Source: Actinomycetes bacterium
GTDB taxonomy: Bacteria; Actinomycetota; Actinomycetes; Actinomycetales; Dermatophilaceae
Assembly (NCBI GenBank): GCA_029778715.1
Contig: JAKOPT010000027.1
Location: 20,223 to 84,222 of the forward strand
DNA length: 64,000 bases
Direction of reading: 5' to 3'
The translations under genes and the position numbers were made by a program. Below, one piece after another: positions 42,847 to 64,000 of this stretch. Positions within the stretch are counted from its first letter, which is position 1. Every line of letters begins with the position of its first letter. The notes below the pieces were generated by a model. It had not been told where the DNA came from, ran no database searches, and saw only the letters and a list, made by a program, of their open reading frames with translations.

Positions 42847-42896
42847 CGTCCACTTCGCCCCCCAACAGTCGGGGGGCGAAGTGCCCCTTTCCCACC
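42819..42896. repeat. Inverted-repeat family D, copy 1, overlapping a gene end
   Basis: A 78-bp element containing perfect 13-bp arms CACTTCGCCCCCC/GGGGGGCGAAGTG (42851-42883), flanked by GTCACC(T)TTTCCCGCCG on the left and CCCCTTTCCC on the right. Both flanks and the stem recur at 60535-60613. Its left end lies inside the last codons of the enoyl-CoA hydratase gene. Confidence 0.85.
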
Positions 42897-43018
42897 TGAA
42901 CCTCGACCGCCACGGGCCCGCGAACGACGCCGCACGGCATACCGGCCCGACGGTGAAGGCACTCGCCAAAGGGGAACACTCCTGACGAATCGGGGGCGAC
43001 TCGGGTTACGTTGGACCG

Positions 43019-45572: not shown

Positions 45573-46064
45573 GGCGGACAACGGGTCGGCGATGGCGTCC
45601 GGGTCGTGCAGGTCGAGCCAGACCAGCGGGCTGTGCCAGTTCGCCTGGTCCTGGGGGAACACGACCCGTGCCAGACCGGCCCCGGCGAGGAGTTTGGCGC
45701 ACGTCGGGCACGGTTGGCAGGTGACGTATGCCGTGCAGCCGCGCAGGTCTCGCCGGGCGTAGAGGAGCGCGTTGGCTTCGGCGTGGACGCTGATGCACCG
45801 ACCGGGCCCCGAGTCGTAGGCGGTGAACTCCTTGAGTTCGTCGTAGGTCAGCAGGCCGCGCGGGCAGGCGCCCTCGAGGCACCCGGGATGCCCGGAGGGG
45901 GCGCCGGTGTAGCCCGTGCCGACGATCCGGTGTCCCTGGTCGACGAGGACGGCGCCGACCTTGCGGCGGCGGCAGTCGCTGCGTTCGGCCACGGCCCGGG
46001 CAATGGCGACGAAGTAGTCGTCCCAGTCCGGGCGCGGGGGGACGGCGGCAGGCGGCATACTCAC
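45555..46064 (-). CDS. Deoxycytidylate deaminase-like zinc deaminase
   Basis: A 169-aa cytidine/dCMP deaminase family protein. DWDDYFVAIARAVAERSDCRRRKVGAVLVDQGHRIVGTGYTG is the N-terminal block. Zinc and catalysis come from CISVHAEANALLYARRDLRG (HAE) and TAYVTCQPCPTCAKLLAGAGLARVVFPQD (PCxxC). This is the ComEB/dCMP deaminase layout, which makes dUMP from dCMP. GTG 46064 (with GACAAT 6 nt upstream) or ATG 46058 are the plausible starts. The ORF-track start at 46172 adds an unrelated leader. Its 3' end overlaps the convergent dioxygenase-like gene. Confidence 0.9.
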   Translation of the reverse strand: MSMPPAAVPPRPDWDDYFVAIARAVAERSDCRRRKVGAVLVDQGHRIVGTGYTGAPSGHPGCLEGACPRGLLTYDELKEFTAYDSGPGRCISVHAEANALLYARRDLRGCTAYVTCQPCPTCAKLLAGAGLARVVFPQDQANWHSPLVWLDLHDPDAIADPLSASTAIE

Positions 46065-46208
46065 GCCGCCATTGTCACGCAGCGACCATGGCAGAACGAA
46101 GGCCCGGGTGGGCGTGGAGCCGCGCCGAGGTGGCCCGGGCGCCGACGGCCTCGGGTCCGCTCGGGACGCCAATTGCGCGGCGAGGGCCCACGTGGACCAC
46201 CGGCGGGG

Positions 46209-47762: not shown

Positions 47763-47772
47763 GGCATACCCC

Positions 47773-48840
47773 TCAGGCGAAGGTGATGAGGGGTTTGACG
47801 ATGCCGTCCTCTTTGTCGGCCATCATCGTGAAGGCCCGCTGCACGTCGGCGAAGGCGAAGCGGTGCGTGGTCATCGGCGTCGGGTCGACCTTGCCGGTCT
47901 CGATGAGGGTGAAGATACGCCGCATCCGGTCGCTGCCTCCGGGGCACAGCCCGGTGCGGATCGTCTTCTCACCCATCCCCAGTCCGAAGGCCATGAGGTC
48001 GAGTTGCAGCGGAGCGGGATTCTCGCCGTGGTAGCCGACATTGGACAGCGTGCCGCCGGCCTTGAGGCAGGCCAGGGCCGCCTCGAAGGTGTGCGGTGCC
48101 CCCAGGGCTTCGATGGTCGCGTCCGCGCCCTGACCACTGGTGAGATCGAGGATCTGCTCCACCACGTCCCCATGGGTGTAGTCGACGACCTCGTCCGCCC
48201 CGAACCGCTTCGACAAGGCGACCCGCTCGGGGAGTGATTCGACGGTGATGATGCGGCCCGCGCCGAGTAGTCGCGCCCCGATCGTCGCCGCCAGGCCCAC
48301 CGCTCCTTGGGCGAACACGACGACCGTGTCCCCGAGAGTGATCTGGGCGTGCTCGGCTCCCATGAACCCGGTGCTCAGCATGTCGCAGGCGTAGACCGCG
48401 GCCTCGTCGGGCACCGAATCCGGGATGGGCGCCAGGTTGGCCTGCGCGGCGGGGACCAGGAAGTACTCGGCCATGTTCCCGTCGACCTGGGCGGTGTACT
48501 TGTAGCCGCCGAGCAACCCGCCGCACTGGGACGACAGACCCCGCTGGCAATAGCTGCACTGCCAACACGGGGTCACCGCGTTGACGGCCACGCGCTGCCC
48601 CTCGGTGAAGCCCGCGACCGCCGACCCCACCGCCGCGACGACCCCGACCGACTCATGTCCGAGGGTGCGCCCGGGCTCGACCGGAAGCGCGCCCCGCACC
48701 GTGTGCACATCGGAGGTGCAGATGAGGGCCGCGGTCGTCTTGACGAGGGCTTCGTTCGGGCCGGGGGTGGGGATCGGCTTGTCCACGATGCTCGTCTCGT
48801 TGAGGCCGAGCATGGTGAAGGTCTGCATCGAAGCGGACAT
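47773..48840 (-). CDS. Zinc-dependent secondary-alcohol dehydrogenase
   Basis: A 355-aa medium-chain dehydrogenase. Catalytic zinc ligands are in CTSDVHTVRG and TLGHESVGVV (GHE). CWQCSYCQRGLSSQCGG has the structural-zinc cysteines. VFAQGAVGLAATIGARLLGAGRIITVES is the NAD(P) Rossmann strand. The CTSDVH site and GYKYTAQVDGNMAEYFLVP are reminiscent of isopropanol/secondary alcohol dehydrogenases. In the operon it would oxidise a secondary alcohol to the ketone used by the carboxylase (inference). ATG 48840 has AAAGGA upstream. The ORF extension to 49068 lies in the thiolase gene. Confidence 0.9.
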   Translation of the reverse strand: MSASMQTFTMLGLNETSIVDKPIPTPGPNEALVKTTAALICTSDVHTVRGALPVEPGRTLGHESVGVVAAVGSAVAGFTEGQRVAVNAVTPCWQCSYCQRGLSSQCGGLLGGYKYTAQVDGNMAEYFLVPAAQANLAPIPDSVPDEAAVYACDMLSTGFMGAEHAQITLGDTVVVFAQGAVGLAATIGARLLGAGRIITVESLPERVALSKRFGADEVVDYTHGDVVEQILDLTSGQGADATIEALGAPHTFEAALACLKAGGTLSNVGYHGENPAPLQLDLMAFGLGMGEKTIRTGLCPGGSDRMRRIFTLIETGKVDPTPMTTHRFAFADVQRAFTMMADKEDGIVKPLITFA

Positions 48841-48941
48841 GGCGGTCGTCCTTTCGTGGTGGGTTGGCGGGGATGGGTATGCCGTCGGGCTGGCCGGCCG
48901 TTTGGACGGCGGGGTCGGGACGGCGGGGCCGGGACGGCGGG

Positions 48942-50108
48942 CTAGGCCACGGCCCCGAGGATGGTGGCGTGGTTGGCCACGGCCAACCCGCCCATGTTGA
49001 ACACCCCGGCCAACCGGGGATTGGGCAGTTGCATGGCACCGGCCGTGCCGGTCAGTTGCATCGCGCACAGGACGTGCTGACTGACGCCGGTAGCACCGAC
49101 GGGATGCCCCTTGGCCTTGAGCCCGCCGGAGCGGTTGACCGGAAGGGGGCCGTCGGCATACACCACGCCCTCGTCCAAGACGGAAACGCCGCGTCCGTTC
49201 GCAGCGAGACCGAGCGCCTCGTAGAGGACGAGTTCGGCGATGGTGAAGCAGTCGTGGAGTTCGATGAGATCGAGGTGGCGCGGGCTGCGCACACCGGCCT
49301 CGTCCAGGGCGCGGCCCCAGGCGGCCCGGGCCCCGGCGAACTCCAGGAGATCACGCCGCGAACGATCGAGGAAGTCACTGGCCTGCCCGATCCCGGCCAC
49401 CCGAACCTGACGCGGGCAGCGGGCGGGGACCGCGGCGTCGGCGGCCAGGACGACCGCGGCCGCGCCGTCACTGACGGGCGAGCAGTCGGTCCGGCGCAGG
49501 GGAGGCGCAACGACCGGATTGGCCGCACTGGTCGTGGCGCAGAACTCCACGGAGAGTTCCCGGTGCAACTGCGCCCACGGGTTGTCCAGGGCGTTGCGAT
49601 GGGCCTTGTGTGCGATCCGGGCCAGCGTGTCGTCGGCGAGACCGTATCGGCCGCGGTATTCGGCAGCGACCTGCCCGAACAGCCCGGCGAACCCCACTGT
49701 CGACTCGGAGCCGGCCAGCGCGAGGTCGGCCCCGAGCAGAGCGGCACCGATCTGCTGTGCCGGCCGGTCCGTCATCTTCTCGGCACCGATGACGAGGACT
49801 TGTCGGGCTCGCCCCGATTCGATGCTTCGGATGCCGTGATGGATCGCGGCGGTGCCGCTGGCGCAGGCGTTTTCGACCCGGATGCAGGGGACGCCGCGCA
49901 GCGTGGGCACGCGCTCCAGGGGCACCGAGGAGGGAAAGGCCAAGGGTTGTAGCCCGGCGTTGTAGGTGGCTACCACCACTTCGTCGATGTCGTGGCCGTC
50001 GAGTTCGGCATGGGTCAGGGCCGATTCGGCGGCGTGGCCGATGAGGTCGACCAGGGAGTCGTCGAGGCGACCGAAACGGGTGTGAGCCCAGCCCACGATG
50101 CTCGTCAT
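48942..50108 (-). CDS. Thiolase (SCP-x/acetyl-CoA acetyltransferase-like)
   Basis: A 388-aa thiolase-fold enzyme. RVENACASGTAAIHHGIRSIESG contains the nucleophilic Cys. IELHDCFTIAELVLYEALGL and GGLKAKGHPVGATGVSQ (GHPxGATG) are the other active-site blocks, and GVFNMGGLAVANHATILG closes the fold. It belongs to the sterol-carrier-x-like branch that includes acetyl-CoA acetyltransferases. In this operon it would cleave the beta-ketoacyl-CoA, giving two acetyl-CoA if the substrate is acetoacetyl-CoA. It starts at ATG 50108, 16 bp after the preceding stop. Confidence 0.92.
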   Translation of the reverse strand: MTSIVGWAHTRFGRLDDSLVDLIGHAAESALTHAELDGHDIDEVVVATYNAGLQPLAFPSSVPLERVPTLRGVPCIRVENACASGTAAIHHGIRSIESGRARQVLVIGAEKMTDRPAQQIGAALLGADLALAGSESTVGFAGLFGQVAAEYRGRYGLADDTLARIAHKAHRNALDNPWAQLHRELSVEFCATTSAANPVVAPPLRRTDCSPVSDGAAAVVLAADAAVPARCPRQVRVAGIGQASDFLDRSRRDLLEFAGARAAWGRALDEAGVRSPRHLDLIELHDCFTIAELVLYEALGLAANGRGVSVLDEGVVYADGPLPVNRSGGLKAKGHPVGATGVSQHVLCAMQLTGTAGAMQLPNPRLAGVFNMGGLAVANHATILGAVA

Positions 50109-50124
50109 CGCTGCGCCACCGGTC

Positions 50125-50922
50125 CTAGCCCAGGGCGGGGAGCCGCTCGAGGACCGACTCCGGGTGGGCATCGGCTGGGATGTGGGTGAGGCGCACGGTG
50201 GCGGCCGAGTCCAGGGTCGTCGCCTCCCCGTCCCAGAACCCGTCGGGCACGACCTGGCCGATCTCGCTGTCGGGCGGGAACTCGATCCCGGTCGAGGTGC
50301 GCAGCCCGATCGACCAGCCCAGGTGGGCCGCCACATTGGTCAGGGCGGTGTAGGTCTCGAGGCGTTCCTCGACCTCCACCTCGACGCCGGCCAGTGCGGC
50401 CGAGGCACGCGCGTCGAGGAGGACCATCTCGATCGGGCAGCCGCCGAGGCGGCCGAGCCACTCGGCCAGGTACAACGAGGCTGAGTCGGCATTGTCCTCG
50501 GAAACCTCGGCTCGTGCCGTCCCTGCCACCTCGTGTGCGCTAGCCAGGAACCGCACCGGGGAGGGCACCGCCAGGGCCACCCGTCGCCGTAGGACGTCGC
50601 CCACCGTCGTCACCGTGACTCGCACGAGGTCCAGTTCGGTCTCGTCGGCGAGCAAGGTCCGCAGCGCATACCCGGTGCGGGTGCGCTCGGCCATCGCCGC
50701 ACACAGTTCCGGGCGGGCCGCAAGCCCGCCGAGCATCATCGCCTCGACATCGACATAGGCCACGTCGGGGTCGAGGAGGGCCTGCACCTGGCGCAGATAG
50801 CCCGCCAATGCCGGCACCTCCCGCCAGGGCACGGGCTGGCCCTGGAGCAGGACGGCACGGCCGTAGTCGCCGTGGTCGATGACGAGTGGGACCGAACGAC
50901 CGCTTGGACTGCTGATGGTCAT
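50125..50922 (-). CDS. Unknown protein inside ketone-carboxylase operon
   Basis: A 265-aa soluble protein with no family I can name. Recognisable stretches are PDVAYVDVEAMMLGGLAARPELC, DLVRVTVTTVGDVLRRRVALAVPSPVRFLASAHEVAG and SASLYLAEWLGRLGGCPIEMVLLDARA. The alternating strand/helix pattern and PSPVRFLA suggest a TIM-barrel-like fold loosely recalling cobalamin-independent methionine synthase/UROD-type proteins, but no zinc triad is evident. ATG 50922 has GGGGAG 4 nt upstream. It follows the large carboxylase subunit and precedes thiolase by 16 bp, so it is in the operon. It could be an accessory subunit like the epsilon chain of acetophenone carboxylase. Confidence 0.7.
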   Translation of the reverse strand: MTISSPSGRSVPLVIDHGDYGRAVLLQGQPVPWREVPALAGYLRQVQALLDPDVAYVDVEAMMLGGLAARPELCAAMAERTRTGYALRTLLADETELDLVRVTVTTVGDVLRRRVALAVPSPVRFLASAHEVAGTARAEVSEDNADSASLYLAEWLGRLGGCPIEMVLLDARASAALAGVEVEVEERLETYTALTNVAAHLGWSIGLRTSTGIEFPPDSEIGQVVPDGFWDGEATTLDSAATVRLTHIPADAHPESVLERLPALG

Positions 50923-51013
50923 GAATCTCCCCAATCTGGGTGCCGGAAGGGTGTGGATGGCTCATCGAGGCCCTCGTGATGAGCGCCTCGTGAGGCAGGT
51001 GGTTGCGGTCACG

Positions 51014-51050
51014 CTGCCGGGCGGTGCTGCGTGGTCAGCCCGCCCGGCAG
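51014..51050. terminator. 11-bp-arm hairpin inside the operon gap
   Basis: CTGCCGGGCGG and CCGCCCGGCAG flank a 15-nt loop, just past the stop of the large carboxylase subunit (minus strand). The position, within the only 142-bp gap of the operon, suggests partial termination or RNA processing that separates carboxylase from downstream enzyme levels. Confidence 0.5.
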
Positions 51051-51064
51051 CCGTGCTCGGGGAC

Positions 51065-53359
51065 TCACGTGAGTCGCTGGACGTCCTCGCCGTACTTGGT
51101 CTCCAACTCGGCGATGCGGGCCTCCAGGGCCGCGATCTTCACCTCGCGCCGGTCGGGCACCATGATGATCGGCAGTTGCTTGAGCGGAGCGGTCACCCGC
51201 TTGGGTCCGTCGATGGTGAACTCGGTTGCGGTGATCTCTTCGACATCACCCCAGGAGCCGTAGTAGAGCAACTCCGCCGGAGGCTCCGGCGTGACGAACT
51301 CGGCGCAGAACTCCTCGAACGGCTTGCCGCGCTGCAACCGGGCCTGGCGGGCCGCCTGCCGGGCCGCCGTGGTGCCCTCCACATCGAGGCGGAAGGTGGC
51401 CGGGTCGTAGACGACCGCGAAGATGTCCTCGGCCACCTTCTGGCTGATCCGGCCCAGTTCGGCATCCCGGACCACCGCGACGGGGTCGCGCTCCAACGGG
51501 TCCCCGTAGCCGCCGCCGGCACCCTGGGAGATCATGTACAACTCGCCGTCCTTGGCGATGTCGAACTGCAACCCCATGTGGGCGGTCAGGTACTTCCCGT
51601 CCTCGAAGGGTCGCTCGTTCATGACCTTCTCGATGGACAGGTCGAACTTGCTGTTGTCGCGGCGGATGTGCTCGTAGACATTGGTGCCCTTGACCATGGC
51701 GAGGGGGTAGGCGCCACAGCCGTACCCGCCGTACATGCCGTAGATGGAGGAGAACTTCGCGCCGGAGGTGACCGTCATGAAGCCCCACTGCGGGGTGCCC
51801 TCGGCGGCCACGATCATCTCGTAGCCCATGCCACCGGTGAACTTCCCGAAGCCCATGTTGTCGCGCACGAGCCGCTTGGAGACCAGTTGCATGAAGGGCA
51901 CTTCCTCCTCCATGACCTCCTGCTCGGCGGTGTCGGCCATCGCGCAGAAGAGCGGCGAGACCGCGTCCTCACCGTCTTTGAACGGCTTGGCCCCACCGGG
52001 CATCCCGTTGAGGTCGGCGCAGAGGTTGCCCACCATGTCACCGTGCTGGGTGATGCCACCCCAGAGGAAGGTGTTGATCTGGTTGAACCAGTTCGCGACC
52101 ACGTTGGAGTACTTGTGCGGCGTCGAGAACGACATCCGCGAGTACATCGCCTGCATTGCCGAGAACCCTCGGAAACTCGCCTGCAGCGACTGACCCATCG
52201 GTGCGTCGTAGGAGGCATCGGCCCAGGTGCCCTCGTCGGAGATGATCTCGATGCAACTCATCGCACTCGTGCAACGCGGCAGGTCGGGCCACCAGAAGGC
52301 CAGGATGGCCTGCATGAACATCGACTTCACCGAACACAACGGGGAGTTGATGGCCCGGTTGAGGATCTCCGGGCCGGTGCCGCGCAGGTCGATGGTCATG
52401 TGGTCGCCCTTGACGGTGATCTTGCAGGCGAACTTGATGAGGATGTTCTCCTTGAGGGTGGAGTCCATGAACTGGTCCATCCGGTAGGTTCCGTCCGGCA
52501 ACTCCGAAATCCGGCGCCGCACCTCGACGTCGACGTCCTCGACCGTGGTCCGCAAGGCACCGACGAAGGTGTCGACGCCAACCTCGTCGATGACCTTGTC
52601 GATGCGCTCCATGATCTTGCGCACCGCAGTGATCTTGACCTTGAGGTCGGCCAACTGGAGTTTGGGGTCCCGCACCGAGTGCTGCAAGAAGGTGAGCAGG
52701 TCCCGGCGCAGGTGGCCGCGTTCGACGATTTTGAACGGGCTCATCCGCAGCCCGTCGTCGAACGGCGTCTCCGAGCCCGACGGCATACCGCCTGGTTCGC
52801 ACGCCCCGTTTTCGCCCTCGTGGATCGTGGCGGCCACCCAGGCGATGACCTGGCCGTCGCGGATGATCGGCATGATCATCGACTGGTCGGTGTTGTGGAT
52901 GTTGCCGAAGCGGGCGTCGTTGTGGATGAACCCGTCGCCCTCATGGATGCCGACGGTCGGCTCGTCCTTCCAGTACTTCATGATGTAGCGGATCGGGTGG
53001 TGAAGGATTGCGCTGAAGGCGATCACGCCATGGCAGGACAGGTAGGCCACGTCTCCGGCGGCGGTGTAGATGGCCGTGGTCAGGTCGCCCCACTTGGCCC
53101 CGGGCGCGGCGCCCTGGGCCTCGCACATCTCGTAGCCCTCGTCGAGAGCGCCGGCGATGCGCTTGCGGATTCGCTCCACCTGGAGCCGGTCCACCCCGGC
53201 GGCCAGGACGATCTCCTCGTGATCCGAGCGCGCCGAGATGGCGTGGTCACGCATGATCTCCGGGTCGGGGCCGAGGAAGAGGGTGGTTTCGTCCATGAAC
53301 TTGTCGACCCACTCCTGCTCCTGAGCAGTGAGGGCGCGGGTCTCGTCGATGGCAGTCAT
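51065..53359 (-). CDS. Acetone carboxylase-type alpha (HyuB-like) subunit
   Basis: A 764-aa subunit of the hydantoinase B/oxoprolinase C-terminal family, closest in layout to acetone carboxylase alpha. EGDGFIHNDARFGNIHNTDQSMIMPI, IAWVAATIHEGENGA, GDHMTIDLRGTGPEILNRAINSPL and GKFTGGMGYEMIVAAEGTPQWGFMTV are characteristic, with AGGGYGDPLERDP near the end. The C-terminus forms a coiled coil (KIAALEARIAELETKYGE). The complex uses ATP and bicarbonate to carboxylate a ketone. ATG 53359 has AAAGGAGAG upstream. It is the fourth gene of the operon. Confidence 0.9.
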   Translation of the reverse strand: MTAIDETRALTAQEQEWVDKFMDETTLFLGPDPEIMRDHAISARSDHEEIVLAAGVDRLQVERIRKRIAGALDEGYEMCEAQGAAPGAKWGDLTTAIYTAAGDVAYLSCHGVIAFSAILHHPIRYIMKYWKDEPTVGIHEGDGFIHNDARFGNIHNTDQSMIMPIIRDGQVIAWVAATIHEGENGACEPGGMPSGSETPFDDGLRMSPFKIVERGHLRRDLLTFLQHSVRDPKLQLADLKVKITAVRKIMERIDKVIDEVGVDTFVGALRTTVEDVDVEVRRRISELPDGTYRMDQFMDSTLKENILIKFACKITVKGDHMTIDLRGTGPEILNRAINSPLCSVKSMFMQAILAFWWPDLPRCTSAMSCIEIISDEGTWADASYDAPMGQSLQASFRGFSAMQAMYSRMSFSTPHKYSNVVANWFNQINTFLWGGITQHGDMVGNLCADLNGMPGGAKPFKDGEDAVSPLFCAMADTAEQEVMEEEVPFMQLVSKRLVRDNMGFGKFTGGMGYEMIVAAEGTPQWGFMTVTSGAKFSSIYGMYGGYGCGAYPLAMVKGTNVYEHIRRDNSKFDLSIEKVMNERPFEDGKYLTAHMGLQFDIAKDGELYMISQGAGGGYGDPLERDPVAVVRDAELGRISQKVAEDIFAVVYDPATFRLDVEGTTAARQAARQARLQRGKPFEEFCAEFVTPEPPAELLYYGSWGDVEEITATEFTIDGPKRVTAPLKQLPIIMVPDRREVKIAALEARIAELETKYGEDVQRLT

Positions 53360-53402
53360 GTCGGTTCTCTCCTTTGAGAATTGGGTATGCCGCGTGGTCC
53401 GG

Positions 53403-55532
53403 TCAGTCCTGCAGGAACCAGACGGCACCCTGCGACGTCGGCTCGAGGCGCCAGCCCGGCTCGACCAGGAAGGTGGTGTTTTCGGTGGTGACGATGGCCG
53501 GGCCGGGGATGACGGCGTCGACGGTGAGGGCGTGGTGGTCGTACACCGGGGTGAGCAGCGGGGCGTCGTGGCCGATGAAGTGCACCTTGCGCTCGCTGAC
53601 CTGGGCCGGGGTATGCCGTTCCCCGCCCCCGTCGAGGGAGTCGAAGTTCACGACGTCCCCTTCGACATACGAGGCGACGCGGATGGTGTTGCACCGGATG
53701 CCGGCCTCGGGGGCCGCGCTGCTCGCCCCGAACCGGTGGCTGTAGACGTCGCCGAAGGTCTTGATCATCGCGAGCACGTCGCCCACCCCGGACATCCGGG
53801 TGAGGTCCTCCAGGGCCACGGCCTGGGTGAGGAGCTGGTTGCCGTAGCGCATGTCCAGTTCGAGGCGGTACTTGACGTCGGCCGGGTCGAATCCCTGCCG
53901 GACCAGGTCCTCACGACCCCGGGCCTCGAGGTCCTCGACGACGGCGTTGAACTCGTCGTAGCGGTCGTAGAGCGAACGGGTCGTGGCGTTGTACATGGTG
54001 ACGTGGACGCCGCGCTCGTGGAAGTGGAGTTGGCGCATGTTGCCGGCCCCGCACGCGGAGAACACCGAGGAGTAGGGCGGGGCGAGGACTCGCTTGATGC
54101 CGGCATGCCGGGCGATGCCGCAGGCGTGGAGCGGTCCGTTCCCGCCGTAGGCCAGCATGGTGAAGTCCTCGGGGAGGTAGCCGCGCACCCGCAACTCCTT
54201 GCCGATGCCGATGGCCATCTGCTCGTCGACCCCGTCCTTGATGGCTCGCGCCACGTCGATGACGTCGAGGTCGAGGTGGTCGCACAGGTGCTCCTCGATG
54301 GCGAACCGGGAGCGCTTGGGGTTGAGCTTGATGTATCCGTTGGCGTAGTTGTCCGGGTCGAGATAACCCAGAAGCAGGTCGGCGTCGGTGACCGTGGGGC
54401 GCAGGCCGCCGCGGTCGTAGCAGGCCGGACCCGGGTTGGACCCGGCCGATTCCGGGCCGATCTTGATCGCGTTGTGGATCCGGTCGTAGGAGGCGATCGA
54501 ACCGCCACCGGCACCAAGGGTGTCCAGGTGCACCATCGGCACCGACACCAGCCAGCGGTCGATGGTCGGGAGGAAGTCGTAGTGCTTGACTCCGCCCTCG
54601 GGCACCAGCCCGATGTCGAAGGAGGTCCCGCCCATGTCGGTGGAGATGACGTGTCCCAGGCCGGTCTCGGTGGACAGGTGCTCGGCGGCACTCACCCCGG
54701 CGATGGGCCCGGAGTGGATCGTCTGCAGGGCGTCGGTGCTGTTCATCTGCGCCATCCCACCGGAGTTGTGGATGACGAGCATCGGCTTGTCGTAGCCGTA
54801 GTCCCGCAGGTTCTGGGAGAGCTGGCTGAGCGCGTGGAACATGATCTCGTGGAGGAAACCGTCGATGATCGTCGACGTGGCCCGCACGTATTCGCCCTTG
54901 CGCCCGGAGACCTGGTGACCGAGCAGCACCGGGATGGCACCGAGCTCGTGCGGCGGGAACTCGTCGAGGATGATCTCCTGGATCGCGAGTTCGTGGGCCG
55001 GGTTTTCGGTCGCGTTGACCAGGGAGACGACCAGGGCCTCGGCCCCGGCGTCGACCAGTTCACGGACGACGCTGCGGACGTCCTCGGGGTCGAGGTGCGC
55101 GACGACCTTGCCGGCCGAGTTCATCCGCTCCTTGACCGAGCGGATCAGGGTGCGGGGAACGATGGCTTCGGGGCGTTCGGCGGCCGGCAGGTTCTGCTGC
55201 ATGGAGTAGTCCAGGCCCTCGCCGTACCCCCGTCCCCGGGACAGCGGGATGGTGTCCTCGAACCCGTGGGTGACGATGGCGCCCACCTTGGGGCCCTTGC
55301 GTTCGATGAGGGCGTTGGTGCCCAAGGTGGTGGCGTAGCGGACCGAGTCCACCTCGGAGAGCACGGTGGCCCGGTCGAGGTCGGCCCGCTTGCAGGCCAG
55401 GTCGAGGGCCTCGTTGAACCCGAGAGCCAGGTTGTGGTGGGTGGTGAGGGCCTTGGCCTCGACGTACTTCTCGTCCCACACGAAGAAGCAGTCGGTGAAC
55501 GTGCCGCCGATGTCGACGGAAATGCGCTTCAT
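53403..55532 (-). CDS. Acetone carboxylase-type beta (HyuA-like) subunit
   Basis: A 709-aa HyuA-family ATP-binding subunit. VDIGGTFTDCFFVWDEKY is the N-terminal phosphate loop of the actin-like ATPase fold. ATTLGTNALIERKGPKVGAIVTHGFED, HNSGGMAQMNSTDALQTIHSGPIAGVSAA, STDMGGTSFDIGLV, LGAGGGSIASYDRIHNAIKIGPESAGSNPGPACYDRGG and YGGNGPLHACGIA all match. It phosphorylates bicarbonate and/or the ketone enolate in characterised relatives. ATG 55532 is preceded by ACAGGA. It lies between the gamma subunit and the HyuB-like subunit. Confidence 0.92.
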   Translation of the reverse strand: MKRISVDIGGTFTDCFFVWDEKYVEAKALTTHHNLALGFNEALDLACKRADLDRATVLSEVDSVRYATTLGTNALIERKGPKVGAIVTHGFEDTIPLSRGRGYGEGLDYSMQQNLPAAERPEAIVPRTLIRSVKERMNSAGKVVAHLDPEDVRSVVRELVDAGAEALVVSLVNATENPAHELAIQEIILDEFPPHELGAIPVLLGHQVSGRKGEYVRATSTIIDGFLHEIMFHALSQLSQNLRDYGYDKPMLVIHNSGGMAQMNSTDALQTIHSGPIAGVSAAEHLSTETGLGHVISTDMGGTSFDIGLVPEGGVKHYDFLPTIDRWLVSVPMVHLDTLGAGGGSIASYDRIHNAIKIGPESAGSNPGPACYDRGGLRPTVTDADLLLGYLDPDNYANGYIKLNPKRSRFAIEEHLCDHLDLDVIDVARAIKDGVDEQMAIGIGKELRVRGYLPEDFTMLAYGGNGPLHACGIARHAGIKRVLAPPYSSVFSACGAGNMRQLHFHERGVHVTMYNATTRSLYDRYDEFNAVVEDLEARGREDLVRQGFDPADVKYRLELDMRYGNQLLTQAVALEDLTRMSGVGDVLAMIKTFGDVYSHRFGASSAAPEAGIRCNTIRVASYVEGDVVNFDSLDGGGERHTPAQVSERKVHFIGHDAPLLTPVYDHHALTVDAVIPGPAIVTTENTTFLVEPGWRLEPTSQGAVWFLQD

Positions 55533-55558
55533 GTCGATAGTCCTGTCTCGTCGCGGGG

Positions 55559-55987
55559 TCAGCGGATGTGGCCAGTGGCCTTGTGCAGGGCGGTGTACTT
55601 CTGGGCGTCCTCGCCGGGGCCATAGATGTGGGCCTGTTCCGGGTCGACTCCGCGTTCTTGCCACTGGCGCCGCAGGGCATCGACGTCGATGAGCAGGTCG
55701 ATCGTCGGGGGGTGGCCCGGGGGCAGGTACTCGGTCTCGATCTGGGTGCCGCAGCCGGGGCAGTAGTACTCGACGATCCGGCAGTAGGTCGGGTCCGGGG
55801 AGAAGGTGTACTCGTACCGGGTGGGGTCGATGATCGGCTGGTGGATCTCCCGGGGGTCACGGTCGTAGGCGAGCGTGCCCTTCTTGTAGGAGTCGTGGGC
55901 ATCGCCCATGTCGCCGTCGCACACCCGGCAGGTCCAGCGCTCGGTATCGAGGTCGATGACCAGGTACTCGGTCATGGGAACTCGCAT
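55559..55987 (-). CDS. Acetone carboxylase gamma-type zinc-ribbon subunit
   Basis: A 142-aa protein matching the acetone carboxylase gamma family (Acetone_carb_G). TEYLVIDLDTERWTCRVCDGDMG has one CxxC, RDPREIHQPIIDP follows, and CRIVEYYCPGCGTQIETEYLPPGHPP holds the second CxxC, so a bound zinc is likely. Gamma subunits are small structural or catalytic parts of the acetone and acetophenone carboxylase complexes. ATG 55987 has AAAGGAA upstream. ATG 55975 (MTEYLVIDL) is equally possible. It lies between the two HyuA-like genes. Confidence 0.87.
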   Translation of the reverse strand: MRVPMTEYLVIDLDTERWTCRVCDGDMGDAHDSYKKGTLAYDRDPREIHQPIIDPTRYEYTFSPDPTYCRIVEYYCPGCGTQIETEYLPPGHPPTIDLLIDVDALRRQWQERGVDPEQAHIYGPGEDAQKYTALHKATGHIR

Positions 55988-56025
55988 CGTCGGGGTTCCT
56001 TTCTTTCTGTTCTGCGCCTGCGGCG

Positions 56026-57941
56026 TCAGTGGTTGTCGGTGAGGAGCAGGTCGCCGGAGGCGGTCACCCGGAAGTCCCAGCCGGACAGGACTCGCCCGGT
56101 GAAGAAGGGGCCTTCGACAATGGCCGGCCCGTGACCGTGCGCCCCTGGCGCCTGGTCGTCAAGGACATAGACCGGTATGCCGTCCACCTGGGTTGCCGAG
56201 GACCGCACCTGCCGCGTTCCGCTGGGGACCGCAGGTGTGGGGACGACGTCCTGATCGGTGATCAGTTCGGGATGCGGAAGTGCTGCGGTCACGGTCAGCC
56301 GCAACGACGCTTGCTCGCCGGGAGCGTCCACCGGGTCGCCCGCGGCATACGGGCGAATGGTGACGGGGGAGCCGTCCTGGTGCTCGACGGCGAGAAGCCA
56401 GTGCTGGTCACAGTCGGCCAGCACGTAGCCCTCCTGGTACATGTCGCGAGCGGCCCGGGCGAGGAGTTCGGCGCGGACCTCCTCGGCGGCCGCGGCGGTC
56501 GGCTCGGGCAACCCGACTTCGTACGTCTTCCCGATGTCGGAGAAGGAAATACCGAATGCCGAGAAGACGGCCGCCATCCGCGGGATGAGCACGGTGTGCA
56601 CCCCGGCGAGGCGGGCCGCCCCGGCGGCGCTCATCGGGCCGGCACCCCCGAAGGCGGCCAGGGTGGTGCCGTCCTCGACGAGGTCGGCGAAGGCGGCAGC
56701 GAGGGCCGCGAAGTAGGCCTGCTCCATCCGCACCAGCGCTTCCTCGAGCGAGATGCCCAGCGGTTGGGCGATGGTCGCGGTGATGACCTGGCGGGAGCGC
56801 TCGGCGTCGAGGGTGAAGGTGCCGTCGAGGTAGGTGTCGGCGTCGAGGACGCCGAGGAGGAGGTTGACGTCGGTGATCGTGGCCTCTTTGCCGCCGAAGC
56901 CGAAACAGGCCGGGCCGGGGGCGGCCCCCACCGACCGGGGTCCGACGGTGATCGCCCCGTCCTTGACGGAGATGACCGAGGAACCGCCGACTCCCGAGGA
57001 GTGGACGTTGCTCATGGGGTAGGAGATGGGGACGCCCTTGATCGTGCCGCGTTCGTCGGCGTCGATCTGACCGTCGCGGACCACTCCGACATCGGTCGTA
57101 GTGCCGCCGATGTCCATCATGAGGATGTGGTCGAGGCCGTAGGTGCGGGCGAGCGCAGCGGTTCCCTCGAGCCCGCCGCGGGGGCCGGAGGAGTAGGTCT
57201 TGAGGGCCACCGACTTGGCCACCCGTGAAGAGGCGCCGTCGTTGCGGTAGACGAGCAGCGGGTTGACGACCCGGTAGGACTTGAGGCGTCGCTCCGCCCC
57301 GTAGAGGAAGCGCTCCATCGTCGGGTGCAGGAACGAGTTGATGACGCAGGACCAGGTCCGTCGCGGGTGGTCACGGTCACCGGCGAGGTCCCAGCTGTAG
57401 ATGATCGGGATCGAACCGAGGAGGTGGCGGGGAACTTGCGCAGCAGCACCGAACGGAGCCGGTGTTCCTCCGCCTTGGTCGCGCATGCGACGACGACCCG
57501 CGCGGCGCCCTGGGTCGTCAGCCGGTTGACGAGTTGCACGACCTCGAAGTCGACGTCGGTCCCGGACTCGGGGGAGAGGTCGATGTGCGCGTGCCGATCG
57601 TCGATGAGGGCCTCGAACAGGTGCTGCTCTTCCTCGTTGCTCTGGAGGTCGTCGATGAGGTCGGGCATCGAGGTGAGGATGCCGATCATGGGGCCGCGTC
57701 GCTCCACGAGGGCGTTGGTGCCCTGGGTCGTGGAGTAGCGCACGTGCTGGGTGGCGTGGAGGAGCCTCTCGGTGTTGGCCGCGCCATACAGCGCGGTGGA
57801 GGCGTTTTCGATGCCGTCGAACAGGCACTGCGAGAGGTCGTGCGGCGTGGTGAGGGTCTTGGTGAAGGTGAACTTCCCGCCGTCCCAGACGCAGATATCG
57901 GTCAGGGTGCCACCGTTGTCGATGTTGATCAGGGTGCTCAT
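56026..57941 (-). pseudogene. Second HyuA-like carboxylase subunit, interrupted by a 1-nt frameshift
   Basis: Read across two frames this encodes a 638-aa HyuA-like protein. The N-terminal part (STLINIDNGGTLTDICVWDGG, RYSTTQGTNALVERRGP, EEHRLRSVLLRKFP) is in one frame. The rest (RHLLGSIPIIYSWDLAGDRD, LHPTMERFLYGAERRLKSYR, MMDIGGTTTDVGVV, YPMSNVHSSGVGGSSVI, GPACFGFGGKEATITD) is in another. They join at a run of four G on the plus strand (57429-57432), where a fifth G would restore one frame with no other change. The two-frame length is one base short of a codon multiple. ATG 57941 has AAGGAAG upstream. It could be a true mutation, slippage-controlled expression, or a sequencing error. Confidence 0.88.
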
Positions 57942-58034
57942 GCCACTTCCTTGTGTCACGGGGAATCGGGTCGTCAGGCCCGTGCGGGGCGCCGTCGTGG
58001 GGATTACTCTGGGCGCTGTCTCAGGGGGGTCCGG

Positions 58035-58051
58035 TGTCCCAAAGTGGGACA
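58035..58051. promoter_or_regulatory. Palindromic operator TGTCCCA-AAG-TGGGACA
   Basis: A perfect 7-bp-arm inverted repeat with a 3-bp spacer sits midway between the divergent carboxylase operon and its Fis-type activator. A related half-site TGTCTCA lies 17 bp to the left (58018). This is the layout expected for an upstream activating site of an AcoR-like regulator. Confidence 0.6.
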
Positions 58052-58155
58052 GTTCGCGGGCTCCCCGTGGGTTGGTTGCGGGTGGCATGCTGAAACAGCC
58101 CTTTGATGGAGACCGTCCTTGGAGGGCCCGACAGACCCTCGCTGAGGAGGTGCCC

Positions 58156-59994
58156 GTGCCGTACACCGACCGTTTGCTGCGCGTGGCCGCGGCCCGGGCC
58201 GACTTCCTCGAAAGCGGTCGCGCCGGGGCGGTGGGGGTGTCCGACGCGTTGGCAGCGTCCTGGGAACGCTCCCAGTCGGCCGGGGTCGACAGCGAGCACC
58301 CGGCCCCCGACTACACCGATGTCGACACCGGGTCACGTCTGTTGCGCTGCGCGAGTCCGGTCATGGAACGCCTCAGGGTTGACACCGCCGACATTCCGCT
58401 GGTCATCGCCTTGACCGACGCGCAGGCGCGCCTCGTGCAGCGCTTGGATTCGTCGTCAGCGGTGGGTCGCCTCCTCGACCGGGTGGCCTTCGCTCCCGGC
58501 TTCTCGTATGCCGAGACGCAAGTAGGAACCAATGGCGTGGGGACGGTGTTGGAGTCGGGTCGCCCGTTCTCCGTCGTGGGACCCGAGCACTTCAGCGAGC
58601 ACCTGCACGCCTTTGCCTGCACCGGAGCGCCGATCATCGACCCGCTGACCGGCCGGGTCGAGGGTGTGCTCGACATTTCGTCGCTCACGCAGGCGTGGAG
58701 CCCGATCATGCACACGCTGGTCAAGTCGGCCGCCGTCGACATCGGCCGCAATCTGCTCCAGGACCGCAGTCAGGCGCAACAGGCCATCTTCGAAACGTAT
58801 ATCCGTGCCGATGCCCGCTCGGGGCGGCACGCAGTGCTGGCGTTCGGCGATCGGGTTTTCATGGGCAACGCCGCTGCGCAGGCCCTGTTCTCACCGGATG
58901 AGCAGTTGACGATCCGCGAGCACGCGACGTTTGTGATGACCCGCAGGACGCAAGCGACCGACACGCTGACGCTGCCGTCGGGACGAATCGTCCACCTCCG
59001 CGGGACCCGGATCCTCGCCGGCAGCCGGACGGTGGGGATGGTCGTCGTCGCCGAGTTGCTCGCGGCGGCCCTCAGCGAGGTGATCGACCGGGTGCCCGAC
59101 ACCCATCTGCCCAATCTCGCGGTGGCATCGCCGGCGACCACCCAGATCGCCAGTGATTTGCACTTGCCCCACGCCCCCATCGCCGAGGGGCAGTCGCCGG
59201 CGTGGGTGCGCACCTGTCAGGAACTGCACGAAGCGATCGGTGCGCGCGTCCCGACGCTGGTCATGGGCGAGACCGGGTCTGGAAAGTTCACCCTCGTCGC
59301 CGAGTTGTTTCACGCGGCCTTCCCCGGAGGACGGTCGGTGTCGGTGGATGCCGAACAGCTCATGCGGCAAAGCGAGGACGATCTTGCCGCCTTCTTGTCG
59401 GCCACGGACGAACCGACCCTCTACATCGTGCGCAACATCGACCAGGCGAGCACGGAAGGGGTCGACCAGATCGAGTTGCTCGTCCGGGCGCTCGGGGAGC
59501 GGACGGAGCACTTCTCGTTTGCCGCGACTCTCTCGGATTCCAGCCTGGACTCGGATCTGCCGTTCCATTCCTTGCTCGGCCATTTCGAGGTGGCCGTGAC
59601 GGTTCCTCCGTTGCGGTGTCGCACGGAGGATCTCACCGTGATCGTGCAACGGCTCTTGCGCGAAATCGCTCCGGGACGCTCGGTGCGGATCGCCCCCGAT
59701 GCGATGCGGACGATCGTGCGGTATTCGTGGCCGCGCAACGTCAGCCAACTGCGCGAGGCGCTTCAGCATGCCCTCAACCGGAGGCCGGTCGGGGAGGTGC
59801 AGGTGAGCGATCTTCCCAGTTACTGCAACACGACCGCGCGACGCACGCTGACCACGCTGGAATCAGCCGAACGGGATGCGATCGTCGCGGCGATCCGGCA
59901 AGCCGACGGAAACCGGCAACTCGCAGCCCAGCACCTCGGCATCGCGCGTTCCAGCCTCTACCGCAAGCTCAAGGCCTACGGCATCACGATCTAG
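58156..59994 (+). CDS. AcoR-like GAF/AAA/Fis activator without sigma-54 loop
   Basis: A 612-aa regulator divergent from the carboxylase operon. The N-terminal GAF-like sensor (DSSSAVGRLLDRVAFAPGFSYAETQVGTNGVGTVLESGRPFSVVGPEHFSEHLH) matches AcoR/MimR types. The AAA+ part has a Walker A-like GETGSGKFTLVAELFH and TLYIVRNIDQA in place of Walker B, but no GAFTGA loop, which is needed to contact sigma-54. WPRNVSQLREALQHAL follows, and the C-terminal Fis helix-turn-helix is RQLAAQHLGIARSSLYRKLKAYGI. It probably activates with a sigma-70-type polymerase. GTG 58156 is set by GAGGAGG 5 nt upstream. The track start at 57751 overlaps the operon. Confidence 0.88.
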   Translation: MPYTDRLLRVAAARADFLESGRAGAVGVSDALAASWERSQSAGVDSEHPAPDYTDVDTGSRLLRCASPVMERLRVDTADIPLVIALTDAQARLVQRLDSSSAVGRLLDRVAFAPGFSYAETQVGTNGVGTVLESGRPFSVVGPEHFSEHLHAFACTGAPIIDPLTGRVEGVLDISSLTQAWSPIMHTLVKSAAVDIGRNLLQDRSQAQQAIFETYIRADARSGRHAVLAFGDRVFMGNAAAQALFSPDEQLTIREHATFVMTRRTQATDTLTLPSGRIVHLRGTRILAGSRTVGMVVVAELLAAALSEVIDRVPDTHLPNLAVASPATTQIASDLHLPHAPIAEGQSPAWVRTCQELHEAIGARVPTLVMGETGSGKFTLVAELFHAAFPGGRSVSVDAEQLMRQSEDDLAAFLSATDEPTLYIVRNIDQASTEGVDQIELLVRALGERTEHFSFAATLSDSSLDSDLPFHSLLGHFEVAVTVPPLRCRTEDLTVIVQRLLREIAPGRSVRIAPDAMRTIVRYSWPRNVSQLREALQHALNRRPVGEVQVSDLPSYCNTTARRTLTTLESAERDAIVAAIRQADGNRQLAAQHLGIARSSLYRKLKAYGITI

Positions 59995-60111
59995 GCGCGG
60001 GCGCAGCCGGCGGCCGGAACACAGGCAGGCCGCCGTAGATCAGCCCGATGGACGTCTTCGGGGTGGCCGCAAGGACAGGTGCCCGGCCGAGCGGTGTGCC
60101 TCGGGGGTTCG

Positions 60112-60385
60112 TTAGTGGCCGGTGTCCAGGAACCCGTCCGTCGGGTCCCGAAGGGGTTCGCAGGTGGCTGGTGGCCAGGTGGCCAGGAAACCCGTCCGCC
60201 GGGGTGCCTAGGTGGGTAGCAAGTGGCTGGTGGCCGAGGGGACGGGAAACCCGCCGGTCGGGGATCACGCGGGCGTGCAAGTGGCTGGTGGCCGAGGGGA
60301 CAGGAAACCCGCCGGTCGGGGATCACGCGGGCGTGCAAGTGGCCCGTGGCCTACGGGACAGGAAACCCGCCGGTCGAAACTTCGA
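60112..60385. repeat. Degenerate 58-bp tandem repeats beside tRNA-Phe
   Basis: About five units. The three best start at 60221, 60279 and 60337 (AAGTGGC...), exactly 58 bp apart, and share GGAAACCCGCCGGTCG and GGATCACGCGGGCGTGC. Earlier units near 60112 and 60162 are more diverged. 58 is not a multiple of 3, so the repeat-like peptides in the ORF track are not real proteins. The last unit runs into the tRNA-Phe terminator. Confidence 0.9.
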
Positions 60386-60396
60386 CGGGCGGGCTT
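60363..60396 (-). terminator. Terminator hairpin downstream of tRNA-Phe
   Basis: On the minus strand AAGCCCGCCCGTCGAA and TTCGACCGGCGGGTTT form a 14-of-16 bp stem ending in TTT, starting 4 bp past the tRNA CCA end. Its 3' arm is the motif that is tandemly repeated further downstream. Confidence 0.75.
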
Positions 60397-60400
60397 GCGG

Positions 60401-60477
60401 TGGTGGCCAGAGGCGGGGTCGAACCGCCGACCTTCCGATTTTCAGTCGGACGCTCGTACCAACTGAGCTATCTGGCC
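60401..60477 (-). tRNA. tRNA-Phe (GAA)
   Basis: The minus strand reads GGCCAGATAGCTCAGTTGG at the 5' end, an anticodon loop ACTGAAAAT (anticodon GAA), GGTTCGACCCC in the T arm and TCTGGCCA at the 3' end. The 7-bp acceptor stem pairs perfectly, and CCA is encoded (TGG at 60401-60403 on the plus strand). Confidence 0.97.
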
Positions 60478-60534
60478 GTGCGCGAGGCGCGCCCCGAACG
60501 ATACCCCAGCCCGGCGGCATACCCCAAAGTGCCC

Positions 60535-60613
60535 GTCACCCCTTTCCCGCCGGAAGTGCCAAACGTCCACTTCGCACCCCAAATGTTCGGGTGCGAAGTG
60601 CCCCTTTCCCGCC
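60535..60613. repeat. Inverted-repeat family D, copy 2
   Basis: GTCACCCCTTTCCCGCCG, then arms CACTTCGCACCC/GGGTGCGAAGTG, then CCCCTTTCCCGCC. It is the same 79-bp design as at 42819, with paired changes in the stem (CACCC/GGGTG instead of CCCCC/GGGGG). It lies between SulP and tRNA-Phe. Confidence 0.85.
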
Positions 60614-60693
60614 GCAAGTCCCACGAGCACTTGCCGCTGCGCGCCACGCCGCCACACGTCGCAGCCCTCGACCCACGCCGGGAACACGGCAAC

Positions 60694-62895
60694 TCACACC
60701 GACGGCGATGACACCCGCGGGTGGGTTTCGGCCCAGGCGAGGTAGGCCGCCTCGGCCACCGGCAGCGTCGGGAACAGCATGTCCTCCCCGATCAGGTCCA
60801 CGACCCCGGCCCGACGCAGCGGCTCGTACAGCTCGCGCTTGATCCGGGTGAGCCCCAGCAAGATGCCCTGGGCCGCCAAATCGCCCTGCAACGCCCGCAA
60901 CCCGTCCGCCGCCGTGATGTCCACCTCGGTGTTGGCCTCGACGTTGAGGAGGAACCAGCGCGGCGGGTCGGCGGGATAGGCCTCGGTCTCCTTGTCGACG
61001 ATCTTCTGGACCCGGCTGCGCAACTCCCCGACATTGGCGAAGAACAGGGGCGCCTCGAACCGGTAGATGATGAGCCCGGGCAGGGTCTGCGCGTTGGGGT
61101 AGTCGGCGACGTCGTGCATGCCCGCGAGCCCGGGCACCCGCCCCAACACCGCGTCGTGCGGGCGCGCGAGCCGCACCCCCATCTCGGCGAGCGACAAGGC
61201 GATGGCGATCCCCACGCCGGCGAGGATCCCGTAGAACACCGTCCCGCCGAGCGTGATGAGCGCCAACGCGAACTCGCGCCGCCGGAACCGCCACAAGCGC
61301 CGGAACTGGCCGACCTGCACGAGCTTGGTCGCGGCATAAAGGACGACGGCCCCGAGCGCGGCCTGCGGCATCCACTTCATGATCGGCCCGGCGACGACGA
61401 GGACGAGCAGCACGACAGCCGCCGCGACCAGCGAATACACCTGAGTGCGCGCCCGACTCGCCAACGCCAGCGCCGTCCGCGAGCCCGACGACGACACCGG
61501 GAACCCGCCGATGAGCCCGACGGCGACGTGCACCCCGCCGAGGGCGACGAGTTCGGACTGCGGGTCGACCTCCTTCTCGGAGGGGCGCTCGCCGGGCAGC
61601 GAGGGCGCCGGGAAGCCGCGGGCGATGAGCATGTTGTCGCTGTACGCCATGACCGTGACGCCGAGCCCGACGATGAGGAGTTCCTTGAGGTCGCCAATGC
61701 TGATGGCGGGGATGGTGGGCGTCGGTATGCCGCTCGGCACCGCGCCGACGACCTTGACTCCCAGCCGTCCCCAGTCGAACGCCGCGTAGCACACCATGGC
61801 GGTGACGACCCCGATGAGGGCGGCCGGCCAGCGCGGGCGGATCCAGTGGACGAGCAGGATGAGGACGAACGTGCCCAGGGCCACCCAGAGCGTCATCAGG
61901 TGGGTGCCAAGGACGCGGTGGGTGAAGTCGACGATCTGGTCGGGGAGGGTGTCGCCCTTGACCGTGGTGCCGGTGATCTTGCCGAGTTGGCCGACGACCA
62001 TGAGGACGGCCGCCCCGGCGAGGTACCCGACGAGCAGCGGTTGGGAGAGCAGGTCGGCGACGACACCGAGCCGGAAGACCCGGCCCACCAGGCACCAGAG
62101 CGCGACGATGAGGCTGAGGGCGGCGCTCAAGGTGACGACCTTGGCGGGGTCGCCGCCGGCGAGCGGGGCGATCGCCACCCCGGCGAGCAGCGCGATGGTG
62201 CTCTCGGGACCGACGGACAGGACCCGGGAGCCGCCCATCACGGCATACACGATCATGGAGACGAACGCGGTCCACAACCCGGTCACCGGGGGGACGCCGA
62301 CGATCGCGGAGTACGCCATCACCTGCGGCACCAGGTATGCCGCGACCGCCAGTCCCGCGATCGAGTCCCGGCGCAGCCAGCGGCGTTGGAACTTCGTGGT
62401 GAGGAAGGTCAGGCCGGGCGTGGCGGCTTGGAACGCCTTGAGTGCCCAGCTGTCCTTGGTGCGGCGCAGTTCGTAGTCGATGGCGTCGTGGCGGGGGATG
62501 GCCGGGCTTTCCGGGGCCGGCTCGGGCAGCGGGAGGGTGCTGTCGGGGGAGACGTAGTGGGGCGCGGGGGCGCCGTCGGCGTAGCGGGCCTCGACCGGTT
62601 CGGGGGCGGGGGTGGGCTCGGCCTGGGGAGTGCCTTCCGTTTCCGGCCCGGCGGGTATGCCGTCCGCGCCCGCTGGCGGCGTAGCGGCCGCTGGTGGTGC
62701 GGGAGCGGAGGGTTCGGGAAGGGGTGTGACGTCGGGAGCGGCCGACGGCGGTGCCGGCGCGAGTGGTTCGCTGAGAGGCGTGCGCTCCTGGGCAGGCGGT
62801 GTCTGCGGCGCGGGAGCGGGGGGCGCGGTGTCGGTGACGGGCGTGGCAAGGGCTGGTTCGCTGTCCGCGTTCACGCCGCGTCCGCCTGCACCCAC
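60694..62895 (-). CDS. SulP-family anion transporter with STAS domain
   Basis: A 733-aa membrane transporter. RRDSIAGLAVAAYLVPQVMAYSAIVGVPPVTGLWTAFVSMIVYAVMGGSRVLSVGPESTIALLAG is the SulP signature region. About 12-14 helices follow, then a C-terminal STAS domain (IIYRFEAPLFFANVGELRSRV, FLLNVEANTEVDITAADGLRAL). An unusually long Pro/Ala/Glu-rich cytoplasmic leader of about 140 residues precedes the first helix. The substrate may be sulfate, bicarbonate or a dicarboxylate. I prefer GTG 62895, which has CAGGAG 8 nt upstream, to ATG 62967. Confidence 0.9.
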   Translation of the reverse strand: MGAGGRGVNADSEPALATPVTDTAPPAPAPQTPPAQERTPLSEPLAPAPPSAAPDVTPLPEPSAPAPPAAATPPAGADGIPAGPETEGTPQAEPTPAPEPVEARYADGAPAPHYVSPDSTLPLPEPAPESPAIPRHDAIDYELRRTKDSWALKAFQAATPGLTFLTTKFQRRWLRRDSIAGLAVAAYLVPQVMAYSAIVGVPPVTGLWTAFVSMIVYAVMGGSRVLSVGPESTIALLAGVAIAPLAGGDPAKVVTLSAALSLIVALWCLVGRVFRLGVVADLLSQPLLVGYLAGAAVLMVVGQLGKITGTTVKGDTLPDQIVDFTHRVLGTHLMTLWVALGTFVLILLVHWIRPRWPAALIGVVTAMVCYAAFDWGRLGVKVVGAVPSGIPTPTIPAISIGDLKELLIVGLGVTVMAYSDNMLIARGFPAPSLPGERPSEKEVDPQSELVALGGVHVAVGLIGGFPVSSSGSRTALALASRARTQVYSLVAAAVVLLVLVVAGPIMKWMPQAALGAVVLYAATKLVQVGQFRRLWRFRRREFALALITLGGTVFYGILAGVGIAIALSLAEMGVRLARPHDAVLGRVPGLAGMHDVADYPNAQTLPGLIIYRFEAPLFFANVGELRSRVQKIVDKETEAYPADPPRWFLLNVEANTEVDITAADGLRALQGDLAAQGILLGLTRIKRELYEPLRRAGVVDLIGEDMLFPTLPVAEAAYLAWAETHPRVSSPSV

Positions 62896-63473: not shown

Positions 63474-64000
63474 TCAACTCGTGCCGTCCGTGGGCGGCTC
63501 GGGTGGGTGGTCGAGGAGCCAGCGCAGGAGTTGTTGGGCCGGCTCGGAGGGGTCGAGGGCTGCCACTTTCCGGGCGATGTACAGTGCTTCCTCGTATGCC
63601 GTCCGCGCCGTGTCCCAGTGGCCGCGGGCTTGGGCGACGGTCCCGACGTTGTTCAACGAGATGGACAGGTCGCGCAGGGCTTCGGGGGTGGCTAACCGGT
63701 CGGCCAACTCCCGGCGCAGGGACAACGATTCGTCGTAGACGGTGGCGGCGGTGTCCCAGTGGCCGCGGGCTTGGGCGACGGTCCCGACGTTGTTCAAGGA
63801 CACGGACAGGTCGCGCAGGGCTTCGGGGGTGCCCAACCGGTCGGCCAACTCCCGGAGAATGCCGATCTGCTCGTCGTAGACGGTGGCGGCGGTGTCCCAG
63901 TGGCCGCGGGCTTGGGCGACGGTCCCGACGTTGTTCAAGGAGATGGACAGGTCGCGCAGGGCTTGGGGGGTGGCTAACCGGTCGGCCAACTCCCGGAGAA
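63474..64000 (-). CDS. Tetratricopeptide-repeat protein, N-terminal part outside window
   Basis: The visible C-terminal about 175 residues consist of three near-identical 47-aa units (ADRLATPQALRDLSISLNNV followed by GTVAQARGHWDTAATVYDE), then EEALYIARKVAALDPSEPAQQLLRWLLDHPPEPP and the stop. DNA copies are exactly 141 bp apart and almost unchanged, pointing to recent tandem expansion. This TPR type is common as the sensor end of actinobacterial STAND, CHAT or NB-ARC signalling and defence proteins. What precedes it is off the edge. The frame stays open to the window end, so TTG 63989 is not the start. Confidence 0.88.
   Translation of the reverse strand, partial: LRELADRLATPQALRDLSISLNNVGTVAQARGHWDTAATVYDEQIGILRELADRLGTPEALRDLSVSLNNVGTVAQARGHWDTAATVYDESLSLRRELADRLATPEALRDLSISLNNVGTVAQARGHWDTARTAYEEALYIARKVAALDPSEPAQQLLRWLLDHPPEPPTDGTS

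Follow-up and report, generated by a model that had tools for sequence, protein, structure and literature searches.

The window analysed here is a 64 kb stretch on contig C85 of a draft genome (162 contigs, 82.7% complete). It carries an operon with the gene order A-B-C-D-E (E a candidate by position), followed by genes for a thiolase, a zinc alcohol dehydrogenase and a CoA ligase, and a divergent regulator is encoded beside the apcA-like gene. The features in window coordinates are:

46040-60399, no strand: stretch of ~14 kb absent at the syntenic place in two genomes of the same genus, right edge at tRNA-Phe (synteny)
46209-47762, minus strand: acyl-CoA ligase, occupying the position that benzoylacetate-CoA ligase has in the known operon (family search)
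47773-49068, minus strand: zinc alcohol dehydrogenase, listed open reading frame (family match; domain from about residue 90, true start probably internal)
48942-50336, minus strand: thiolase, listed open reading frame (family match; domain from about residue 77, true start probably internal)
50125-50934, minus strand: gene in the apcE position, 269 aa, without family match (kept next to apcD in G059, G064, G080 and the Psychrobacter and Rhodococcus loci)
51065-53356, minus strand: apcD-like (Hydantoinase_B) subunit, intact (family matches; 90% identical to the homologue in G059)
53403-55532, minus strand: apcC-like alpha subunit, intact (family matches; KERMNSAG, matching the published R/KERiDsxG fingerprint, PMC5214803)
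55559-55987, minus strand: apcB-like small subunit (Acetone_carb_G), intact (PDB 5l9w_C, 2e-35, vs 2.2e-7 for acetone carboxylase gamma)
56026-57429, minus strand: 3' part of the apcA-like gene (Hydantoinase_A), 467 codons, free of internal stops, in the shifted frame (Pfam PF01968, 7.1e-57; NCBIfam ApcA, 4.4e-75; PDB 5l9w alpha subunit, 1.5e-61)
57429-57432, minus strand: frameshift point, CCCC on the coding strand, one base short vs all homologues (frame switch; 18 distinct uninterrupted homologues)
57432-57941, minus strand: 5' part of the apcA-like gene (Hydant_A_N), codons 1-170 (Pfam PF05378, 2.8e-17; NCBIfam ApcA best match, 2e-16; PDB 5l9w alpha subunit, gene apcA, 6.6e-12)
58156-59994, plus strand: divergent AcoR/DhaR-like regulator (GAF, AAA lid, Fis HTH), without GAFTGA (adjoins apcA in G069, G059, G064 and Rhodococcus too)

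The apcA-like gene occupies the minus strand from 57941 to 56026, with codons 1-170 and the last 467 codons in different frames. Translation in minus-strand frame 0 from the ATG at 57941 follows the family for 170 residues, as far as ...LLRKF at 57432. From 57429 the match to the family picks up again as RHLLGSIPIIYSW, in the -1 frame (RHLLGSIPIIYSWDLAGD), and this frame stays open until the stop at 56026. The zone in which the two frames meet is only four bases, CCCC on the coding strand at 57432-57429 (GGGG on the plus strand). Unshifted translation runs into a stop at 57117 and yields a product of 274 aa, the last 104 being out of frame. The joined reading of 638 aa gives uninterrupted alignments with its homologues in four same-family genomes (73, 71, 63 and 54% identity).

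Eighteen distinct homologues were read at the DNA level: four from the same family, three more from the same order, three each from Psychrobacter, Helicobacter and Rhodococcus plasmids, one from Neorhizobium and one from a Cupriavidus plasmid. All 18 are uninterrupted at the site and encode [F/Y]-P-[R/P]-[H/Q]-L-L-G in a single frame; the frame switch is therefore not a chance effect. The frameshift is thus confirmed as genuinely in the sequence, with one base missing relative to all homologues. A sequence-only reading of this DNA had placed a single-base frameshift at GGGG 57429-57432 and described the remainder of the gene as stop-free and intact. The sharp frame switch and the 18 uninterrupted homologues bear out the former, and the frame open to 56026 the latter; no second lesion was found in the apcA-like gene.

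The same reading had proposed that one extra G restores a protein of 638 aa. The length agrees with the joined reading, but G is only one of four possible bases. Any CCN between TTC and CGC that loses its third base leaves the identical window sequence, and the proline codon at this site is CCC in six homologues, CCT in five, CCG in four and CCA in three, so that any of the four bases could be the missing one. Proline codon use in the neighbouring genes of the same genome was CCG 87, CCC 65, CCA 5 and CCT 4. Comparison with the homologues places the missing base at the third position of a proline codon CCN, where N may be any base and homopolymer slippage is possible. The G4 run itself carries little information, since the window holds 763 G/C runs of at least four bases (584 of length 4, 150 of length 5 and 29 of length 6), among which it is unremarkable.

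For both halves of the apcA-like gene, the nearest named model and solved chain is the alpha subunit (gene apcA) of acetophenone carboxylase, and the best PDB match of both halves and of the B-like and C-like subunits is the corresponding chain of 5L9W. The C-like subunit contains KERMNSAG at residue 134, in agreement with the fingerprint, and scored 494 bits against the Apc gamma chain (5l9w_B) vs 282 against Acx beta. No R/KERiDsxG motif occurs in the N-terminal part of the A-like gene. Judged by the presence of the fingerprint in the C-like protein and its absence here, the broken gene is the alpha-prime subunit gene, in the naming of PMC5214803, of an acetophenone-carboxylase-type operon, and its subunit differs from that of the operon's other HyuA-like gene. 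It had earlier been called the second HyuA-like gene; the HyuA family holds and is narrowed to an apcA-type alpha-prime subunit of an ATP-dependent ketone carboxylase resembling acetophenone carboxylase, but in order it is the first gene of the operon.

The published Apc gene order is apcABCD(E), with E highly divergent and not always present (PMC5214803). The window shows this order, as well as two HyuA-like subunits with the motif in alpha (C) and not in alpha-prime (A). The core subunits are not all encoded as intact chains, the A-like gene being frameshifted. The operon thus appears to be of Apc type by descent, with a working enzyme only putative. All four of the ApcA-D subunits scored below the NCBIfam equivalog cut-offs (e.g., ApcA 253 vs 1250 bits), so acetophenone as the substrate is likewise only putative. 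Identity with acetone carboxylase (Acx) was considered and rejected, because four or five genes are present in the Apc order, vs the three-gene acxA-B-C arrangement without alpha-prime.

The 269-aa protein encoded in the apcE position matched no Pfam family and, with the cut-off relaxed to E = 10, no NCBIfam model either, and it is 31-47% identical to the proteins encoded beside apcD in related operons. It may represent a divergent E subunit family without a model. Neither this draft nor five related genomes yielded a sigma-54 DNA-binding domain; as the divergent regulator also lacks GAFTGA, it presumably works without sigma-54. In every pair of loci among L063-L065, L203 and the window, A (alpha-prime) was less conserved than C and D (59-75% vs 78-90% identity). 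This fits the published finding that alpha-prime makes no contact to the beta and gamma subunits.

By analogy with Aromatoleum aromaticum (PMC4729919), the gene set may be read as a route from a secondary alcohol to a ketone, which would be carboxylated to a 3-oxoacid, ligated to CoA and cleaved by thiolysis. The earlier description of an otherwise complete pathway is confirmed, the other operon genes being intact.

The operon lies in the ~14 kb stretch that is absent from two genomes of the same genus, G001 and G002. Both genomes match the window at 42322-46035 and, ~1.3 kb (G001) or 3.3 kb (G002) later, match it again at 60400-62584, and the syntenic right flank includes tRNA-Phe and a SulP-type transporter. 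G001 has an unrelated short stretch where the window has ~14 kb. The Apc-like operon was found at high similarity in only few members of the order and is absent from G001 and G002. This patchy distribution, together with the presence of the same operon on Rhodococcus plasmids, favours gain of the stretch here over loss in the relatives. For integration at tRNA-Phe, neither a second copy of the tRNA end nor att-like repeats were found, and the two edges had no 13-mers in common. A 58-bp tandem repeat (about four copies) occupies 60127-60376, at the margin of the accessory stretch, with the regulator on one side and tRNA-Phe on the other. Another tandem repeat of 141 bp (63610-64000; copies 92% alike), encoding 47-aa TPR-like repeats, runs off the end of the window.

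The age of the break was addressed by relative-rate counts against L063 with L065 as the outgroup. Window-specific changes numbered 12 vs 10 in the N-terminal part and 22 vs 34 in the C-terminal part, i.e., without an excess of window-specific substitutions in either part, and the intact apcC and apcD neighbours behaved similarly. The normal rate and the lack of a second lesion suggest that the break is either very recent or an error in the sequence. A DNA-level search found no close strain with the same locus among the genomes searched; the nearest homologue shares 75% of residues in the protein's 3' part.

The error rate of the draft was estimated by comparing ~370 kb of it (including a few short contigs reading as N) with open reading frames taken from G002 (1.74 Mb), G001 (120 kb) and the operon loci. 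Of the draft, 187,647 bases were covered by homologous proteins, and the apcA frameshift was recovered by the method. The other candidates comprised two degenerate insertion-sequence transposases, two weak short hits (C80, C90) and nadB-nadC, which was the only other strong one and is a gene fusion in the reference. Of all frameshift candidates raised elsewhere in the draft, most proved to be antisense shadow ORFs or neighbouring genes. Across the 187,647 comparable bases, non-mobile genes other than apcA held no confirmed isolated frameshift, which gives a 95% upper limit of ~1.6 per 100 kb (3/187,647). This argues against a draft that is generally indel-prone; a single local error may still have occurred.

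Recent loss, phase variation by slippage in a poly-G tract and assembly error had all been offered as origins of the break, and of these recent loss and assembly error survive. We consider it rather probable that the break is an unremarkable loss-of-function indel of very recent date in an accessory, dispensable apcA-type gene, and young pseudogenes are expected among accessory genes. The main competitor is a consensus error, in which the organism has an intact gene and the draft sequence lacks one of its bases. Apart from the break the gene is flawless and its rate of evolution is normal, the site sits in a GC-rich stretch of a fragmented draft, and the homologues L208 and L209 have a longer run at the site, with five C in frame. 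An error would leave just such a gene, with no further lesion and no change of rate, and this counts against a real deletion. These features make a consensus error a possible explanation; we regard it as the less likely one, given that no other isolated frameshift was confirmed in the ~188 kb of comparable sequence. Moreover, a run of four bases poses no difficulty for common short-read data.

Phase variation, a reversible change in tract length that switches the enzyme on and off, would agree with a frameshift falling on a G4/C4 run, but phase-variable tracts are normally much longer than four bases. The long, length-variable simple repeat of a phase-variable gene is not present: the tract is one of 584 G/C runs of its length in the window, and no fixed-length tract is kept in the relatives, where the proline codon varies. 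A metabolic subunit would also be an unusual target, and we hold this mechanism to be very improbable. Programmed -1 ribosomal frameshifting, by which a slip of CCC onto CCC would lead into the family sequence K-F-P-R-H-L-L-G and a full-length protein, is extremely unlikely. No X-XXY-YYZ heptamer was found, the 60 nt downstream are no more stable than shuffled sequences (-12.9 vs mean -15.2), and a shift is needed in none of the 18 homologues, so that it would be unique to this genome. Equally far-fetched is a gene fission with two separate working chains. Domains are retained in both parts, but no homologue split at this site was found, and the first ATG of the 3' part lies ~37 codons past the break (PTMERF), which would cost conserved residues. 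Since Acx functions without alpha-prime, residual alpha-beta-gamma activity is conceivable, and the lineage might have dropped alpha-prime to run the alpha-beta-gamma core, with the E-like protein, as a three-subunit enzyme resembling acetone carboxylase, at the start of a reduction from Apc to Acx. We consider such a reduction most improbable.

Under the favoured reading of a very recent indel, a single base at the third position of the Pro171 codon would have been deleted, shifting the frame of everything downstream in the gene. One of the two proposed ATP sites of the solved Apc core sits in alpha-prime, whose ASKHA parts comprise residues 1-80 and 215-465, and the published model uses both kinase subunits (PMC5214803). 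As the native sequence ends at residue 170, the second ASKHA part would be lost. The cell would make a 274-aa product without the second ATP-binding lobe, and the carboxylase would most likely be inactive, given that the model uses both kinase subunits; the remaining subunit and pathway genes would stay intact. Both the presence of the deletion in the cells themselves and the loss of carboxylase activity are inferences.

Decay of the operon was also seen elsewhere. On plasmid pR8L1 of Rhodococcus sp. 008 (L205, 2676-4858), the apcA homologue begins at about residue 99, only the last 38 residues of the neighbouring divergent regulator are matched, and apcB matches in two frames. To judge from these matches, this operon is decaying independently and by other lesions, indicating that erosion after acquisition is not unique to the window. 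A plasmid match from Rhodococcus sp. BH4 has a score equal to that of pR8L1 and may have the same decay. In Helicobacter sp. NHP21005 (L072, 12082-14340), the apcD homologue matches successively in frames 1, 2 and 1, as two indels would produce.

If the mutation is real, it represents one more accessory catabolic operon lost soon after its gain, and the break hits a subunit that simpler relatives (acetone carboxylase, hydantoinase) do without. It would also make gene content alone an unsafe predictor of ketone use by this organism. If it is an error, it is relevant to annotation only. For the gene itself, apcA-type is a better annotation than HyuA-like.

Among known systems, acetophenone carboxylase of A. 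aromaticum (ApcABCDE, PDB 5L9W, PMC5214803) has the A-B-C-D-E order in common with the operon described here, where E is a candidate by position, and in both a thiolase and a CoA ligase follow. The present operon differs from it in the frameshifted apcA, a D-like subunit of 763 aa (model 685) and an E-position gene without family match. Acetone carboxylase AcxABC shares the alpha, beta and gamma families (HyuA, HyuB, Acetone_carb_G), but it has neither alpha-prime nor an E subunit, and its order is A-B-C (PMC5214803), unlike the operon here. The operons of Rhodococcus plasmids (R. jostii RHA1 pRHL2, R. qingshengii J1-2), Psychrobacter and gastric Helicobacter display the same order, with 53-67% identity in the 3' part of A. 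The divergent regulator is also found in the Rhodococcus operons, and an E-like gene in those of Rhodococcus and Psychrobacter; the Helicobacter loci gave no E-like match. The A subunit of the Rhodococcus, Psychrobacter and Helicobacter operons is uninterrupted at the site, unlike that of the window.
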